From an uncultured Alphaproteobacteria bacterium (GTDB lineage Bacteria; Pseudomonadota; Alphaproteobacteria; Rhodobacterales; Rhodobacteraceae): a DNA stretch of 64,000 bases. How positions within the stretch are numbered: the stretch's first letter is position 1; every line of letters starts with the position of its first letter. Made by a program: the position numbers and the translations under genes. The notes below the pieces were generated by a model. It saw only the letters and a program-made list of their open reading frames with translations, searched no databases and was not told the origin of the DNA. Shown piece by piece: positions 1 through 61,924 of this stretch. The stretch spans positions 1 through 64,000 of the forward strand of contig CAJWEI010000002.1 of NCBI GenBank assembly GCA_913031285.1. The letters run 5' to 3'.

Positions 1-412
1 AACCCGCGCCTTAAGCTTGGAAGGCTCTTATGATACCATTTCACCATACCCGCTCGTCAGGTAACGCTGATAGATCAAGCCCCATTTAACGTCAAGGACG
101 AAGCACTAGATTCTGGTAAAATTAGAGGAATTGGGGATCACAGCTTTGAAAGCTATCTGATAACTAAAGCTTTAACTCAATAAAAGTACCAATAAATTTT
201 CTTAATAAACGTCACTCAACGTTTAAAAACATTATAGGCATCTTCTATTTCAATAGTTTTTTCAATCAAGCAAAAGTGGCTTTGCACATTAACTATAAAG
301 CCCTTATTACCTCTAAGAGGAAGGAAGGGAGTATCAATTTTTATTGTCAACATTACGCTACTTAATTCTCAAGTGGTCATTCGGAGGCCTGTGCTCCTAC
401 TATCCCTTTCTG
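1..412. other. Left-edge stretch without an intact gene
   Basis: No complete gene is visible. A plus-strand frame open from 34 to the TAA at 181-183 reads like the tail of a protein (ending ...SYLITKALTQ). A second plus-strand frame that runs in from the left edge closes at about 62-64. The first frame is closed upstream by a TGA at 31-33, so the two could be a frameshifted C-terminus of a gene lying to the left, or coincidence. I do not recognise the family. The remainder, 184-412, is AT-rich and shows nothing definable. Confidence 0.3.
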
Positions 413-57839: not shown

Positions 57840-58319
57840 TTATTCAGGATGTTTCGGAGTTTGGCTTGAATGCGCCAGATAGGGACGTGTCACGTCTTTT
57901 AGTCTCACTTCAATGGCCTCGACTTGCGCTTTAAGCACGCCATCACCTGCAAAAGTGATTGATAGGTCAAAATCACTGTTCTCGGCTTCGACCATGTCCA
58001 ATGACAAGAGAGAAAGGATCAAGCCACTCTGTTTACGATCAATGCTTTGCGATGACACAGAAACTACGTTGTCGACCAAAAGAAGGGATTGCACGCGCTC
58101 GAAAGGTCGACCCTGATGTACCGCTTTATCTCTGTCTTCCCAACGAAAGCGATTGACCAAAAGCCCAAGCCTGTGATGTTTAGACCACCAGCTGATCTCA
58201 GTGATGGGAAGCACTGCATCTTGGATCAAGGTCGAAACCACTGCGAGATCATGTTGATTAAACGCTCCGATATTCAATGGACGTTCATCTCCATCCTCAA
58301 ATCGCGCGTCTTGGCTCAT
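57840..58319 (-). CDS. DUF2948 family protein
   Basis: A 159-residue alphaproteobacterial protein of unknown function: [19 protein letters not shown] near 20, [21 protein letters not shown] near 42, and a C-terminal ECDxxL-type beta segment. It overlaps the end of murA by four bases and precedes hisD by 63 bases, so the three are probably one transcript. Confidence 0.87.
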
Positions 58320-59587
58320 ATGCCAGGTACTCTTTGCACTTGCGCACCAATGGCTTGGAGTTTTTCTTCGAGTTTTTCATAGCCACGGTCTAAATGATAC
58401 ACACGGCTGAGTATAGTTTCACCCTCAGCGGCCAAACCCGCCAAAATAAGCGATACTGACGCGCGCAAGTCAGTCGCCATAACCGGCGCACCTTTTAGTT
58501 TAGAGACGCCACTTACTTTGGCTATACCGCCCCTCACTTCAATTTGGGCCCCCATGCGGATTAGTTCAGGTGCATGCATGAAACGGTTTTCAAAAATAGT
58601 TTCCTCAAGATGACACACACCCTGGGCTGTACACATCAAAGCCATCATCTGCGCTTGTAAATCCGTTGGAAAGCCCGGAAAGACGCCCGTGGTCACATCG
58701 ACTGCCTTAATATCTGCATTTGTTCTCTTAGCTCTAATCCCACTGTCTGTTTCGTCAAATTCTACGCCTGCTGCGGCAAGCTTTTCGCAAAAGGACGTCA
58801 GTAAATCTAGACGTCCACCGACCAAATCCACCTCACCCCCAGTGATGGCCGGGATCAGCATATAAGTTCCCAATTCAATCCGATCACAGACCACAGGATG
58901 GGTCGCGCCATGGAGTCGGTCAACACCTTCTATTGTGATAGTCGAGGTACCTTCTCCCTGAATATGAGCTCCCATTTTGCGCAAACAGCTTACTAAATCC
59001 ACAATTTCTGGTTCGCGCGCAGCGTTTTCTAGAACAGACGCACCTTTGGCGAGGGTTGCAGCCATTAAAAAGTTCTCCGTCGCACCAACCGAAGCAAAAC
59101 GCATCTTATGACGACGACCTTGCAATCCATTTACTGGCGCACGGGCATGCAGATACCCTTCTTTCAACTCGATAACTGCACCCAGCGCCTCCAGCGCAGA
59201 GATATGGATATCCATTGGACGCGCCCCAATTGCACAGCCACCTGGAAGCGATACGACTGCCTCTCCAGAACGGGCCAGTAGTGGGCCAAGCACAAGGTTG
59301 GAGGCTCGCATCTTGCGCACAAGATCATAATCAGCCGAAAGATTAGTCAAATTATGCGACGACATTGCAATTACTAAGCCGTCATTAAGACTGCTAACTT
59401 CTGCTCCAAAAGACTGCAAAAGGCTTGACATCGTCTTGATATCGGACAGGCGAGGTGCATTTGTAAGGGTCAAAGGTTCTTCACTCAAAAGTGTTGCCGG
59501 CATAAGTGTAAGGCAGGCATTTTTCGCGCCAGCAATAGGGATTGTTCCGGACAAAGGACCGTTACCGGTTACTAAAATCGAATCCAT
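58316..59587 (-). CDS. murA: UDP-N-acetylglucosamine 1-carboxyvinyltransferase
   Basis: The 423-residue enzyme for the first committed step of peptidoglycan synthesis. [15 protein letters not shown] near 14 contains the substrate Lys-Asn, and [16 protein letters not shown] near 114-129 holds the catalytic Cys that fosfomycin attacks. [11 protein letters not shown] and [13 protein letters not shown] follow. Full length and conventional. Confidence 0.96.
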
Positions 59588-59592
59588 TTACT

Positions 59593-59769
59593 TTAATCCT
59601 CGCTAGTATCAACTGCCTCGTCTGACGCCTTACTCTGAATCTTTAAAGATGACTTAAGGCGAGCTTGCGCCTTTCGTTTAGCCATATTTGACTTCAACGC
59701 AGCCTTAAGGCGATCATCGCGGCTTTGCGCCGTCTTTGAACTAGGTTTTTTGCGCTCGTTCGACGTCAT
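59593..59769 (-). CDS. Small basic protein upstream of murA, 58 residues
   Basis: ATG at 59769 opens a 58-codon frame ending six bases before murA. The product is very basic and probably helical (KSNMAKRKAQARLKSSLK in the middle) with an acidic tail (DEAVDTSED). Its spacing to murA suggests co-expression. I believe short Lys/Ala-rich proteins occupy this place in other Rhodobacteraceae, but I cannot name a family. Confidence 0.6.
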   Translation of the reverse strand: MTSNERKKPSSKTAQSRDDRLKAALKSNMAKRKAQARLKSSLKIQSKASDEAVDTSED

Positions 59770-59854
59770 AGCGAGACGCTACAGCATTGGCAAGCCGTGG
59801 TCCATATACCGCTTGCCTAATAGCGAATTTCCGTCTACTCAGCGCCAATAAAGT

Positions 59855-59929
59855 GCCGCAGTAGCTCAGTGGTAGAGCACACCCTTGGTAAGGGTGAGGC
59901 CGGGAGTTCGATCCTCCCCTGCGGCACCA
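59855..59929 (+). tRNA. tRNA-Thr (GGT)
   Basis: A complete cloverleaf of 75 bases including an encoded CCA. Acceptor GCCGCAG pairs with CTGCGGC; anticodon stem CACCC/GGGTG encloses loop TTGGTAA, anticodon GGT (threonine, ACC/ACU codons); T-arm GGGAG-TTCGATC-CTCCC. No integrated element adjoins its 3' end. Confidence 0.97.
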
Positions 59930-60263
59930 TTTGTATCTCATATTTTAAAAAACATTCAGAATTTCATAATGCACACTGTGGATATCAGCGATTTAAGAAA
60001 AAGAACTTTTAAAAAAAGGATTTAACAATATTTCACATCCCAAATCATCATAAATATTGATCTATAAAGTGGTAATATAACCGCAAAAAGGTCTCATTCT
60101 GTTAGGACAGAATCTGAGTCAGAGCCAAGATTCACTCGACATTTTGGTTCTATAATAGCCAAAAAGTAATTAATTATTTTGGAAGATAACTGCAAATAGC
60201 TGTAAAAAAATATTTTTTTATTAATAAACTAAACAAATTCTTCACCTTACCGTTTTGTTTTTT
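59930..60263 (+). ncRNA. Structured non-coding stretch: candidate small RNA or leader
   Basis: Between the tRNA and the flagellin gene. ATTCTGT-TAGG-ACAGAAT (60096-60113) forms a perfect hairpin. Its 3' arm overlaps GAATCT (60110-60115), which can instead pair with AGATTC (60128-60133), so the two foldings exclude each other. Two terminators follow at 60264 and 60294. This could be a stand-alone small RNA, a tRNA trailer or an attenuating leader of the flagellin gene. No open frame of note. Confidence 0.4.
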
Positions 60264-60286
60264 GGGAACAATTCCCTTTTTTTTTT
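60264..60286 (+). terminator. Rho-independent terminator 1
   Basis: GGGAA-CAA-TTCCC stem (60264-60276) followed directly by ten T (60277-60286). A short but canonical terminator for plus-strand transcription, 127 bases before the flagellin start. Confidence 0.7.
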
Positions 60287-60293
60287 AACTTAG

Positions 60294-60320
60294 GCTATGG
60301 TTCATTCCATAGCTTTTTTT
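60294..60320 (+). terminator. Rho-independent terminator 2
   Basis: GCTATGG-TTCATT-CCATAGC stem (60294-60313) followed by seven T, a C and five more T. It is in tandem with terminator 1, eight bases further on, and 93 bases before the flagellin start. Confidence 0.75.
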
Positions 60321-60412
60321 CTTTTTATTGACATTACCAAGAATATTTGCCCTTTTTAAAGAAAAAAGGGAGCGAAGGTTTAACCTCAAAGAGGGAACTT
60401 TCGCTAAAATAT

Positions 60413-61924
60413 ATGACCGTTTCCTTGACCGCAAATAATGCGGCGCTTGTTGCTGCGTCCGCACTCTATAAAGCAACCAAAAGCCATGAGGTGTCTTTAG
60501 AAAGACTTGCGACCGGCATAAGAATTAATTCTGGCAAAGACGACCCTGGAAATCTGCATAAAATCTCCCGTTTAGCATCCGAAACTCGCGGCATCCAAAT
60601 GGGTATCCAAAATGCTCTCGAATTTCAAAGTATTTTGGAAATTGCTGACAGTACCAATGTTGAAATTTCAAATAAACTGCAATCTCTGCGGGAAAAATCT
60701 ATTTTGGCGATGAATTCAACTTATACAGTCCAAGATCGGGCTGATCTGCAGATTGACGCAGCACAAACTATAGCTGGAGCTGACCAAATGGCCACAGTTG
60801 CGGCATATAATAATCAGTCATTGACAGATGGGACATTCACCAGCAAAACGATCAGCCTAGGCGATGCAACGGCTGACCAAATAACCGTGAGTATAGAAAG
60901 CTCTAAGACGGCGGCACTGGGACAGTATTACATTTCCGGCACGTCGCATCTCAAAGTAGCAGCAAGTAACGATACGTCAGCAGTAACCGATGTAACCTCT
61001 CAAACGCTTAGTATTACGGGTAAAGCAAATGCAAGTGTTTCTATTACTACAGGTAGCTCTGCCAAAACCGCTGCTGCTGCAATAAACGCTACTACATCAA
61101 CTACCGGGGTATCAGCAACCGCATCAACAACCTTGAAAATTGATACACTCGCCAATTTAACGTCAGGCAAAACTGTAAGTTTTAAGATTGGTTCTACTCA
61201 GATTGCCAGTGCGCTGGTTACATCCAACGACTTAACAGCTCTAGCCACAAGTATAAATTTATCAACAGCCTCAACAGGTGTAACTGCGGTAGTGGGAAGT
61301 TCGAATTCTGAATTACTTTTAAGCAATACGGACGGCTCTGATATACTAATAGATGATTTTTTGACCACAAACACAGATGATTTGTCAGCTTCAATACAGG
61401 TAACTGCGGTAAATTCCCGCACAGGGGCGGAAGTGGGAAGTGCAGTCTCATTGTATCATGTAATAAACTCTACAAGGCAGGCAAGCATTGATAGCGTAAT
61501 AGCTATTGGTCAAGTAGAAATAGGTTATCACAAAACTTTTTCTATGACAGGTGGAGCATCAACTTCTACTCTGTTGGCACAGTCAAATACTGTTGCATCA
61601 GAATTTGTTTCCACCATTGATATATCCACTCAGTCAGGTGCAACTGCTGCAGTAAGAGTTCTAGACTCGGCTTTAACAAAAATCAGTGAAGTTAGAGCTA
61701 GTATTGGCGCAGTATCTTCAAGACTCGACTCTGCAACAGATTTTTTAACGTCAATCAATATACCACTTAGCGTTTCACTTTCGCATTTAAAAGATACTGA
61801 TTTTGCAGAAGAAACTTTAAATCTTACAAAGTCACAGCTCATAAGAGACAACGCAGCAGCCATGTTGGCCCAAGCCAACTCATCAATGGCCTCTATTCAG
61901 GAAAAAATACTGGGTGGGCTATGA
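60413..61924 (+). CDS. Flagellin with large variable domain
   Basis: The flagellar filament protein, about 503 residues. Conserved D0/D1 ends: N-terminal NNAALVAASALYKATKSHEVSLERLATGIRIN region (residues 7-38) and a C-terminal FAEETLNLTKSQLIRDNAAAMLAQANSSM region near the end. The centre is Thr/Ser/Ala-rich and contains two segments resembling Flagellin_IN repeats (about 195-240 and 245-305). No signal peptide and no Cys, as expected for type III export. ATG 60413 fits the family; the frame opens earlier. Preceded by tandem terminators. Confidence 0.85.
   Translation: MTVSLTANNAALVAASALYKATKSHEVSLERLATGIRINSGKDDPGNLHKISRLASETRGIQMGIQNALEFQSILEIADSTNVEISNKLQSLREKSILAMNSTYTVQDRADLQIDAAQTIAGADQMATVAAYNNQSLTDGTFTSKTISLGDATADQITVSIESSKTAALGQYYISGTSHLKVAASNDTSAVTDVTSQTLSITGKANASVSITTGSSAKTAAAAINATTSTTGVSATASTTLKIDTLANLTSGKTVSFKIGSTQIASALVTSNDLTALATSINLSTASTGVTAVVGSSNSELLLSNTDGSDILIDDFLTTNTDDLSASIQVTAVNSRTGAEVGSAVSLYHVINSTRQASIDSVIAIGQVEIGYHKTFSMTGGASTSTLLAQSNTVASEFVSTIDISTQSGATAAVRVLDSALTKISEVRASIGAVSSRLDSATDFLTSINIPLSVSLSHLKDTDFAEETLNLTKSQLIRDNAAAMLAQANSSMASIQEKILGGL

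Follow-up and report, generated by a model that had tools for sequence, protein, structure and literature searches.

Two tandem terminators between a candidate FliA-type promoter and a flagellin gene in a Rhodobacteraceae-type genome

What are two intrinsic terminators doing in tandem directly ahead of a flagellin gene? The question is posed by the AT-rich stretch between a tRNA-Thr gene and a flagellin gene in the window, the whole 64 kb of DNA that was analysed. A sequence-only reading of this region had proposed a switch, in which two mutually exclusive stems upstream of the terminators would decide the output, either a small RNA downstream of the tRNA or a flagellin leader subject to attenuation. 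Our analysis does not support that switch. Allowing for appreciable doubt, we consider that 60229-60412 probably comprises a sigma28-dependent flagellin promoter together with a 5′ leader that acts as an attenuator, so that flagellin would be made by read-through.

The locus and its two terminators

The features first needed are as follows.

58316-59587, minus strand: murA
59855-59929, plus strand: tRNA-Thr(GGT), found by ARAGORN and by Rfam (tRNA, 72.9 bits)
60088-60166, plus strand: structured, unconserved segment holding the two proposed stems, outside the flagellin transcript as modelled
60229-60256, plus strand: candidate sigma28 (FliA)-type flagellin promoter, CTAAAC-N14-ACCGTTTT (ACCGTT), located with a matrix from genus flagellins
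60257-60263, plus strand: promoter to transcript start, the start being placed at ~60262-60264, the first bases of T1
60264-60286, plus strand: terminator T1, a GGGAACAATTCCC hairpin (5 bp, 60264-60276) followed by T10, terminator score 29.1
60292-60326, plus strand: terminator T2, a hairpin of 8-9 bp (60292-60315) followed by the T-rich tail T5CT5, score 42.2
60413-61924, plus strand: flagellin gene (ATG 60413, 503 aa) with the Pfam domains Flagellin_N (E 7.8e-16) and Flagellin_C (E 1.9e-15)

Seven genomes of the genus (55-96% complete) were compared. The nearest relative of the window's genome (G000) with this locus is Paracoccaceae bacterium AH-224-B08 (G002; JAOGIM010000039.1), whose flagellin is 78% identical; from this relative we infer that the window comes from a Rhodobacteraceae/Paracoccaceae-type genome.

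The tRNA-Thr gene named in the sequence-only reading is confirmed, and the two canonical terminators before flagellin are also present. In T1 and T2 a stable hairpin stands directly before a T-tract. On a graded score applied to both strands of the 64 kb, T2 ranks first and T1 second, the next candidate reaching 23.4; a simple pattern scan of 59700-60700 gave no excess, with two terminators found against 1.1 +/- 1.1 expected. T2 with its tail (60282-60326) folds with a z of -5.69, and the 60-nt segment carrying both hairpins (60263-60322) with a z of -4.82, matched by 0/200 shuffles. Such a terminator is absent from all 17 other flagellin upstream regions inspected (7 from the genus, 10 from other genera), where the highest score, 7.3, belongs to a site upstream of the promoter motif.

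A candidate flagellar promoter and a conserved leader

The promoter matrix was built from four other flagellin promoters of the genus, leaving out the window and its AH-224-B08 orthologue. Its best site, 60229-60256, lies upstream of T1 and T2 and downstream of the proposed stems. No shuffle of 2000 reached the score with 300 nt scanned; one did with 483 nt scanned, and again one with the FliS site added. No second site of this score occurs on either strand of the 64 kb. The transcript start was placed by the usual -10 to +1 distance, so that the RNA probably begins with T1. Along the DNA the order is promoter (60229-60256), T1 and T2 (60264-60326) and gene (60413); because the promoter precedes both terminators, these would lie inside the flagellin gene's own 5′ leader.

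Read from other flagellin leaders, the genus motif is CTAAAC-N13/14-(G/A)CCG. As a pattern it has 12 exact matches in the seven genomes, five preceding flagellins (the window and its orthologue included) and one preceding FliS, a count that is partly circular, the pattern having been written after viewing the window and the other genus leaders; the reversed control gave 61 matches. The distance from motif to ATG is 158 nt here and 160 in AH-224-B08, and 31, 100 and 104 in three other genus flagellins. A flagellin homologue (47%) in a further genus genome, G004, has a weaker site, reached by 35/2000 shuffles.

Flagellins of other genera provided loci that had not been used to define the motif. 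Eleven were found by protein similarity and ten were scanned, L116 (contig begins within the gene) being left out of both scans. TAAA-N14-16-(A/G)CCG was present within 250 nt of the ATG in 7/10, the expectation from the window being ~0.018 per 250 nt. This purine-form scan also excluded L040, L041, L091 and L095-L101 as partial, second or other hits; its coverage thus stops short of the starts of any additional flagellin genes that G006 may have. When the scan was repeated with any base before CCG, nine of the ten had the motif within 160 nt of the ATG, in all nine followed by TT; these TAAA-N14/16-CCGTT sites (L114, L115, L117-L119, L121-L124) lie at -70 to -100. Seven of them have a spacer of 14 nt and two a spacer of 16 nt, compared with 15 nt in the window and AH-224-B08, and a version with CTAAA and 15-17 nt matches only 1/10 because most other-genus sites have the 14-nt spacer. 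The motif is missing from two of seven other genus flagellins (C82 and C91, both of G000) and from one of the ten in other genera (L120).

The E. coli sigma28 consensus finds its best match in the window elsewhere, at a score reached by 399/1000 shuffles; the corresponding counts are 76 for the AH-224-B08 orthologue, 45 for C1 of the same genome, and 962 and 457 for C30 and C132 of G004. It is a poor yardstick here, and the lineage's own motif was therefore relied on. A TAAA-type -35 and a CCG-type -10 about 15 nt apart, shared with other late flagellar genes of the lineage, are consistent with a sigma28-dependent late promoter.

A matching sigma factor is encoded in the genus. FliA-like proteins were found in all five genus genomes searched (185.4-189.9 bits, 185.4 in G000), the next sigma factors scoring ~107; the curated cut-off of 189.6 is reached by one of the five, so that the name FliA rests on matches mostly just below it. 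The same search matched 10/14 control genomes, three above the cut-off. In Rhodobacter sphaeroides, fliC of the Fla1 system is reported to be directed by FliA (PMC7277832).

The promoter and leader are strongly conserved, with 164 of 186 columns identical between the window and AH-224-B08. By element, using the hairpins H3 and H4 listed below, identity is 13/13 for T1, 22/24 for T2, 21/21 for H3 and 34/35 for H4. One change in T2 turns a G-U pair into A-U and the other is in the loop; the single change in H4 keeps its pair. Stem positions changed in 2 of 72 cases, both pair-keeping, compared with 13 of 84 positions outside the stems (p 0.012, Fisher test). The leader is known from these two sequences, which show no covariation, no pair having been altered in both partners.

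In the flagellin gene itself, dS is 2.07 or 2.52 and dN 0.13 or 0.12 by two methods; third codon positions are 46% identical and 54% differing, and synonymous sites are saturated. The dN/dS of ~0.05-0.065 against the AH-224-B08 orthologue shows that the gene is under purifying selection. Downstream of the gene no recognisable conservation is seen (107/222 columns identical). Judged from this alignment, the leader is under constraint at the nucleotide level, because it is conserved although synonymous sites are saturated and the DNA downstream of the gene is not conserved. We note separately that the flagellin dS of 2.07 (60413-61921 against L032 4600-6111) exceeds the murA value from these two genomes (0.62) more than threefold, which points to fast divergence or to a different origin of the locus.

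A coding explanation of the conserved leader was considered and rejected. A frame is open from TTG 60347 to the ATG in both species; by reading, its three substitutions in 22 codons fall at first or second positions and none at third, and the constraint is therefore not on an amino-acid sequence. As for a peptide-coding attenuator leader, an upstream frame of 20 codons from ATG 60297 is also open in AH-224-B08; by reading, 7/8 of its substitutions are at first or second codon positions, unlike constrained coding sequence, a difference that so short a frame can do no more than suggest.

A DNA search of 41 genomes found the leader at length only in the window's genome and AH-224-B08; a few others gave fragments no longer than 46 nt, none with an E better than 0.003. 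Among 100 genomes of the family it occurs only in its own genome (eight others match over 18-28 nt, E 0.036 or worse), and the same holds among 390 genomes of the order; other members of the genus (55-86% complete) lie outside those 390 because all of these are at least 90% complete.

Leader folding and possible modes of action

Prediction of the leader fold adds the following elements.

60263-60322, plus strand: predicted short leader RNA, ~60 nt, ending at T2
60273-60288, plus strand: 5′ half of the helix LR, pairing with 60356-60371 and excluding T1 and H3
60350-60370, plus strand: hairpin H3 (CCCTTTTT/AAAAAGGG), -7.1 kcal/mol, its 3′ arm also a partner of LR
60356-60371, plus strand: A-rich 3′ half of LR, the partner of 60273-60288
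60371-60405, plus strand: hairpin H4, -16.9 kcal/mol, ending 7 nt before the flagellin ATG

The full leader folds with a z of -4.7 in the window and -5.19 in AH-224-B08, with 0/500 shuffles as good in each. In its favoured fold the 3′ arm and U-tract of T1 pair with the A-rich stretch to form LR. This helix spans 16 nt at 94% complementarity, an inverted repeat equalled in 1/200 shuffles, and has a probability of 0.75 in the window leader and 0.99 in AH-224-B08, where a 2-nt insertion makes it longer. T1 and H3 on one side and LR on the other are thus, in the predicted folds, a real pair of mutually exclusive structures. LR cannot be a classical antiterminator because it forms only after T2 is passed, and by reading we saw nothing in the short RNA ahead of T2 that could serve as an antiterminator in cis. 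H4 contains GAGGG at 60391-60395; by reading, the window leader has no AGGAG near the ATG, a motif present in 8/10 other-genus flagellins.

Taken together, these elements suggest an attenuator. RNA polymerase with FliA would start at the base of T1, at ~60263, so that the RNA would open with the small T1 hairpin and its synthesis would soon meet the strong terminator T2. Most transcripts would end there, giving a leader RNA of ~60 nt that carries both hairpins and finishes in a run of U, while a minority would read through into flagellin mRNA. The read-through leader would then refold, T1's 3′ arm and U-tract pairing with the A-rich stretch before H4, and the stable H4 hairpin would stand directly ahead of the start codon. 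This flagellin would then be made at a low level or only under certain conditions, and the leader RNA may itself act as a small RNA. Of the two outputs proposed from sequence alone, the attenuated flagellin leader is supported, though on other grounds: its promoter lies between the stems and the terminators, and its sequence is strongly conserved in AH-224-B08. It counts against the attenuator that a leader with two strong terminators ought to leave the flagellin gene nearly silent; T1, standing where the transcript begins, may be inactive as a terminator.

A tentative and distinctly less probable account makes the leader a regulatory RNA with a hairpin at its 5′ end, whose U-tracts would pair in cis or in trans with the A-rich 60356-60371, a self-limiting switch that operates without FlbT or CsrA. 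The T1 arm, the T2 tail and H3 would then compete for one partner in the flagellin mRNA, and read-through and translation of one flagellin would be coupled to the supply of FliA.

It is unlikely that flagellin is instead served by a second promoter after T2, at TTGACA 60328-60333. The hexamer TTGACATT (60328-60333) is kept in AH-224-B08 although the leader is at its least conserved there (60329-60349, 15/21 identical), but by reading it has no recognisable -10 at 16-18 nt, and the promoter scan lists no such site. No sigma28-like site lies between T2 and the ATG in the window species or AH-224-B08, though the motif closely precedes 9/10 other-genus flagellins, and reading for sigma54 and sigma70 promoters after T2 gave no convincing match.

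We also think it unlikely that in the cell T1 and T2, instead of terminating transcription, serve as 5′ stabilising hairpins or as DNA operators regulating the sigma28 promoter. In favour, each is an almost perfect inverted repeat, so that near-palindromic DNA lies at the start site and directly beyond it, and T1 is conserved at 13/13 positions where the transcript would begin. Against this, both have long T-tracts on the plus strand and the highest terminator scores of the window.

The attenuated flagellin leader that we favour can be set beside known systems. The Caulobacter flagellin leader is controlled by FlbT and, like the present one, is a 5′ leader structured near the start codon; unlike in Caulobacter, FlbT was found in none of the seven genus genomes (55-96% complete), whereas one of 14 controls, Caulobacter, matched. 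An FlbT-regulated leader was rejected because FlbT was not found in these incomplete genomes. Bacillus hag is controlled by CsrA-FliW. The same control is reported for Campylobacter flagellin mRNA (PMC4894983). These are likewise structured flagellin leaders containing GGA; unlike there, CsrA was found in 0/7 genus genomes (and in 3/14 controls, E. coli, B. subtilis and T. maritima), and a CsrA-regulated leader was rejected on that ground.

Two described leader RNAs offer parallels in mechanism. MotR of E. coli is described as having a sigma28 promoter and a terminator before motA, with read-through giving a late flagellar mRNA (PMC10578931). The present locus would likewise yield a short 5′ UTR RNA and a read-through mRNA from one sigma28 promoter, here predicted from sequence; it differs in gene (flagellin, not motA), in bacterial class, in having two tandem terminators with the first at the 5′ end, and in the hairpin next to the start codon. 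For UpsM, from the mraZ/dcw leader of Rhodobacter sphaeroides, read-through is put at about once in 100 (PMC5089854). That case, also in the Rhodobacteraceae, shares the long 5′ leader, the strong intrinsic terminator and the short RNA with rare read-through (predicted in ours), but concerns another gene and promoter; the mraZ arrangement is described as a consistent feature of Rhodobacteraceae (PMC5089854), whereas the flagellin leader is known from two genomes. Among titles and the opening lines of abstracts, in a collection that covers subscription journals thinly, we found no flagellin with a leader terminator and read-through.

The usual account is that flagellin synthesis runs at full rate as soon as free FliA is available. 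A flagellin leader with two strong terminators would imply a control step beyond FliA; two known regulators of flagellin leaders, FlbT and CsrA, were not found in the seven genomes of this genus. Flagellin would then join the genes, such as those of MotR and UpsM, with a leader RNA from read-through-prone termination. The promoter motif could help to annotate late flagellar genes in the family.

The segment next to tRNA-Thr

Much less survives of the proposals for the DNA upstream of the promoter. The two stems, A at 60096-60113 (7 bp, -4.9 kcal/mol) and B at 60110-60133 (-5.1 kcal/mol), can both be drawn and share 60110-60113, as the sequence-only reading had it, but they do not compete. Within 60088-60166, six of the seven pairs of stem A have a probability of at least 0.853 (the outermost 0.28), whereas the five outer pairs of stem B are at 0.0, because a hairpin at 60121-60151 (-11.8 kcal/mol) takes its place. 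With stem B forced the segment folds at -14.4 kcal/mol, and with stem A forced at -21.2 kcal/mol. The segment itself is structured (3/500 shuffles fold as well; 16/500 for 60081-60212), and appears as two adjacent stable hairpins without a relative in the genus. In six other, incomplete genus genomes the best match to 60081-60212 is 20 nt (E 0.04), and conservation of the stems was not recognisable there or in AH-224-B08. The alignment of 60080-60219 with AH-224-B08 has 82/158 identical columns, a score reached by 1/200 shuffles; there may be faint homology adjoining 60219.

That T1 and T2 end an upstream transcript, be it a small RNA (~60087-60320) after tRNA-Thr or read-through from the tRNA, and so shield flagellin, is very unlikely. 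The structured 60088-60166 followed by terminators would suit such an RNA. Set against it, conservation extends from flagellin to the terminators but not to the part upstream, other DNA precedes them in AH-224-B08, both lie downstream of the putative flagellin promoter, and promoter-like sites in 59700-60700 are not above chance (two found against 2.4 expected from shuffles). In AH-224-B08 the DNA upstream of the leader differs from the window, and the link between tRNA-Thr and the leader looks positional only, because ~2.5 kb of different DNA separates the two there.

That the two stems alternate and control T1 and T2 is highly improbable: the 4-nt overlap stands against a stem B that is unpopulated and ~7 kcal/mol worse when forced, in a segment upstream of the flagellin promoter for which no conservation was found, and the proposed switch was abandoned.

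A riboswitch was likewise rejected. No Rfam family but tRNA reaches its gathering score in the window, in agreement with the earlier statement that no known class was recognised; a low-threshold scan of 59930-60450 gave ten matches, all under the gathering score. Only T1 lies between the putative start and T2, and the upstream stems have no relative in the genus. Rfam also marks a partial tRNA at the edge of the window (positions 1-53, minus strand, 33.4 bits).

The other long flagellin of the window's genome (C82) lacks the late promoter motif and has an unexplained stretch upstream (L083 8140-8560), in which Rfam finds nothing at gathering score.

Mobile elements were looked for around the tRNA. 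A search of the window for an attachment site repeating the tRNA 3′ end, with up to 3 mismatches allowed, found the tRNA alone. Nine plasmid records match 59930-60228, the best eight of the nine spanning 32-41 nt with a lowest E of 0.002, and two phage records match 59930-60450 at E 0.1 or worse; no close relative of the flagellin was found on viral contigs with the single protein as query. At the loci L032, L033 and L034, which belong to G001, AH-224-B08 and G003 in no stated order, inspection of the DNA and its translations shows short integrase-like ORFs, seemingly degraded, downstream of this tRNA-Thr gene; the site is perhaps an insertion hot spot.
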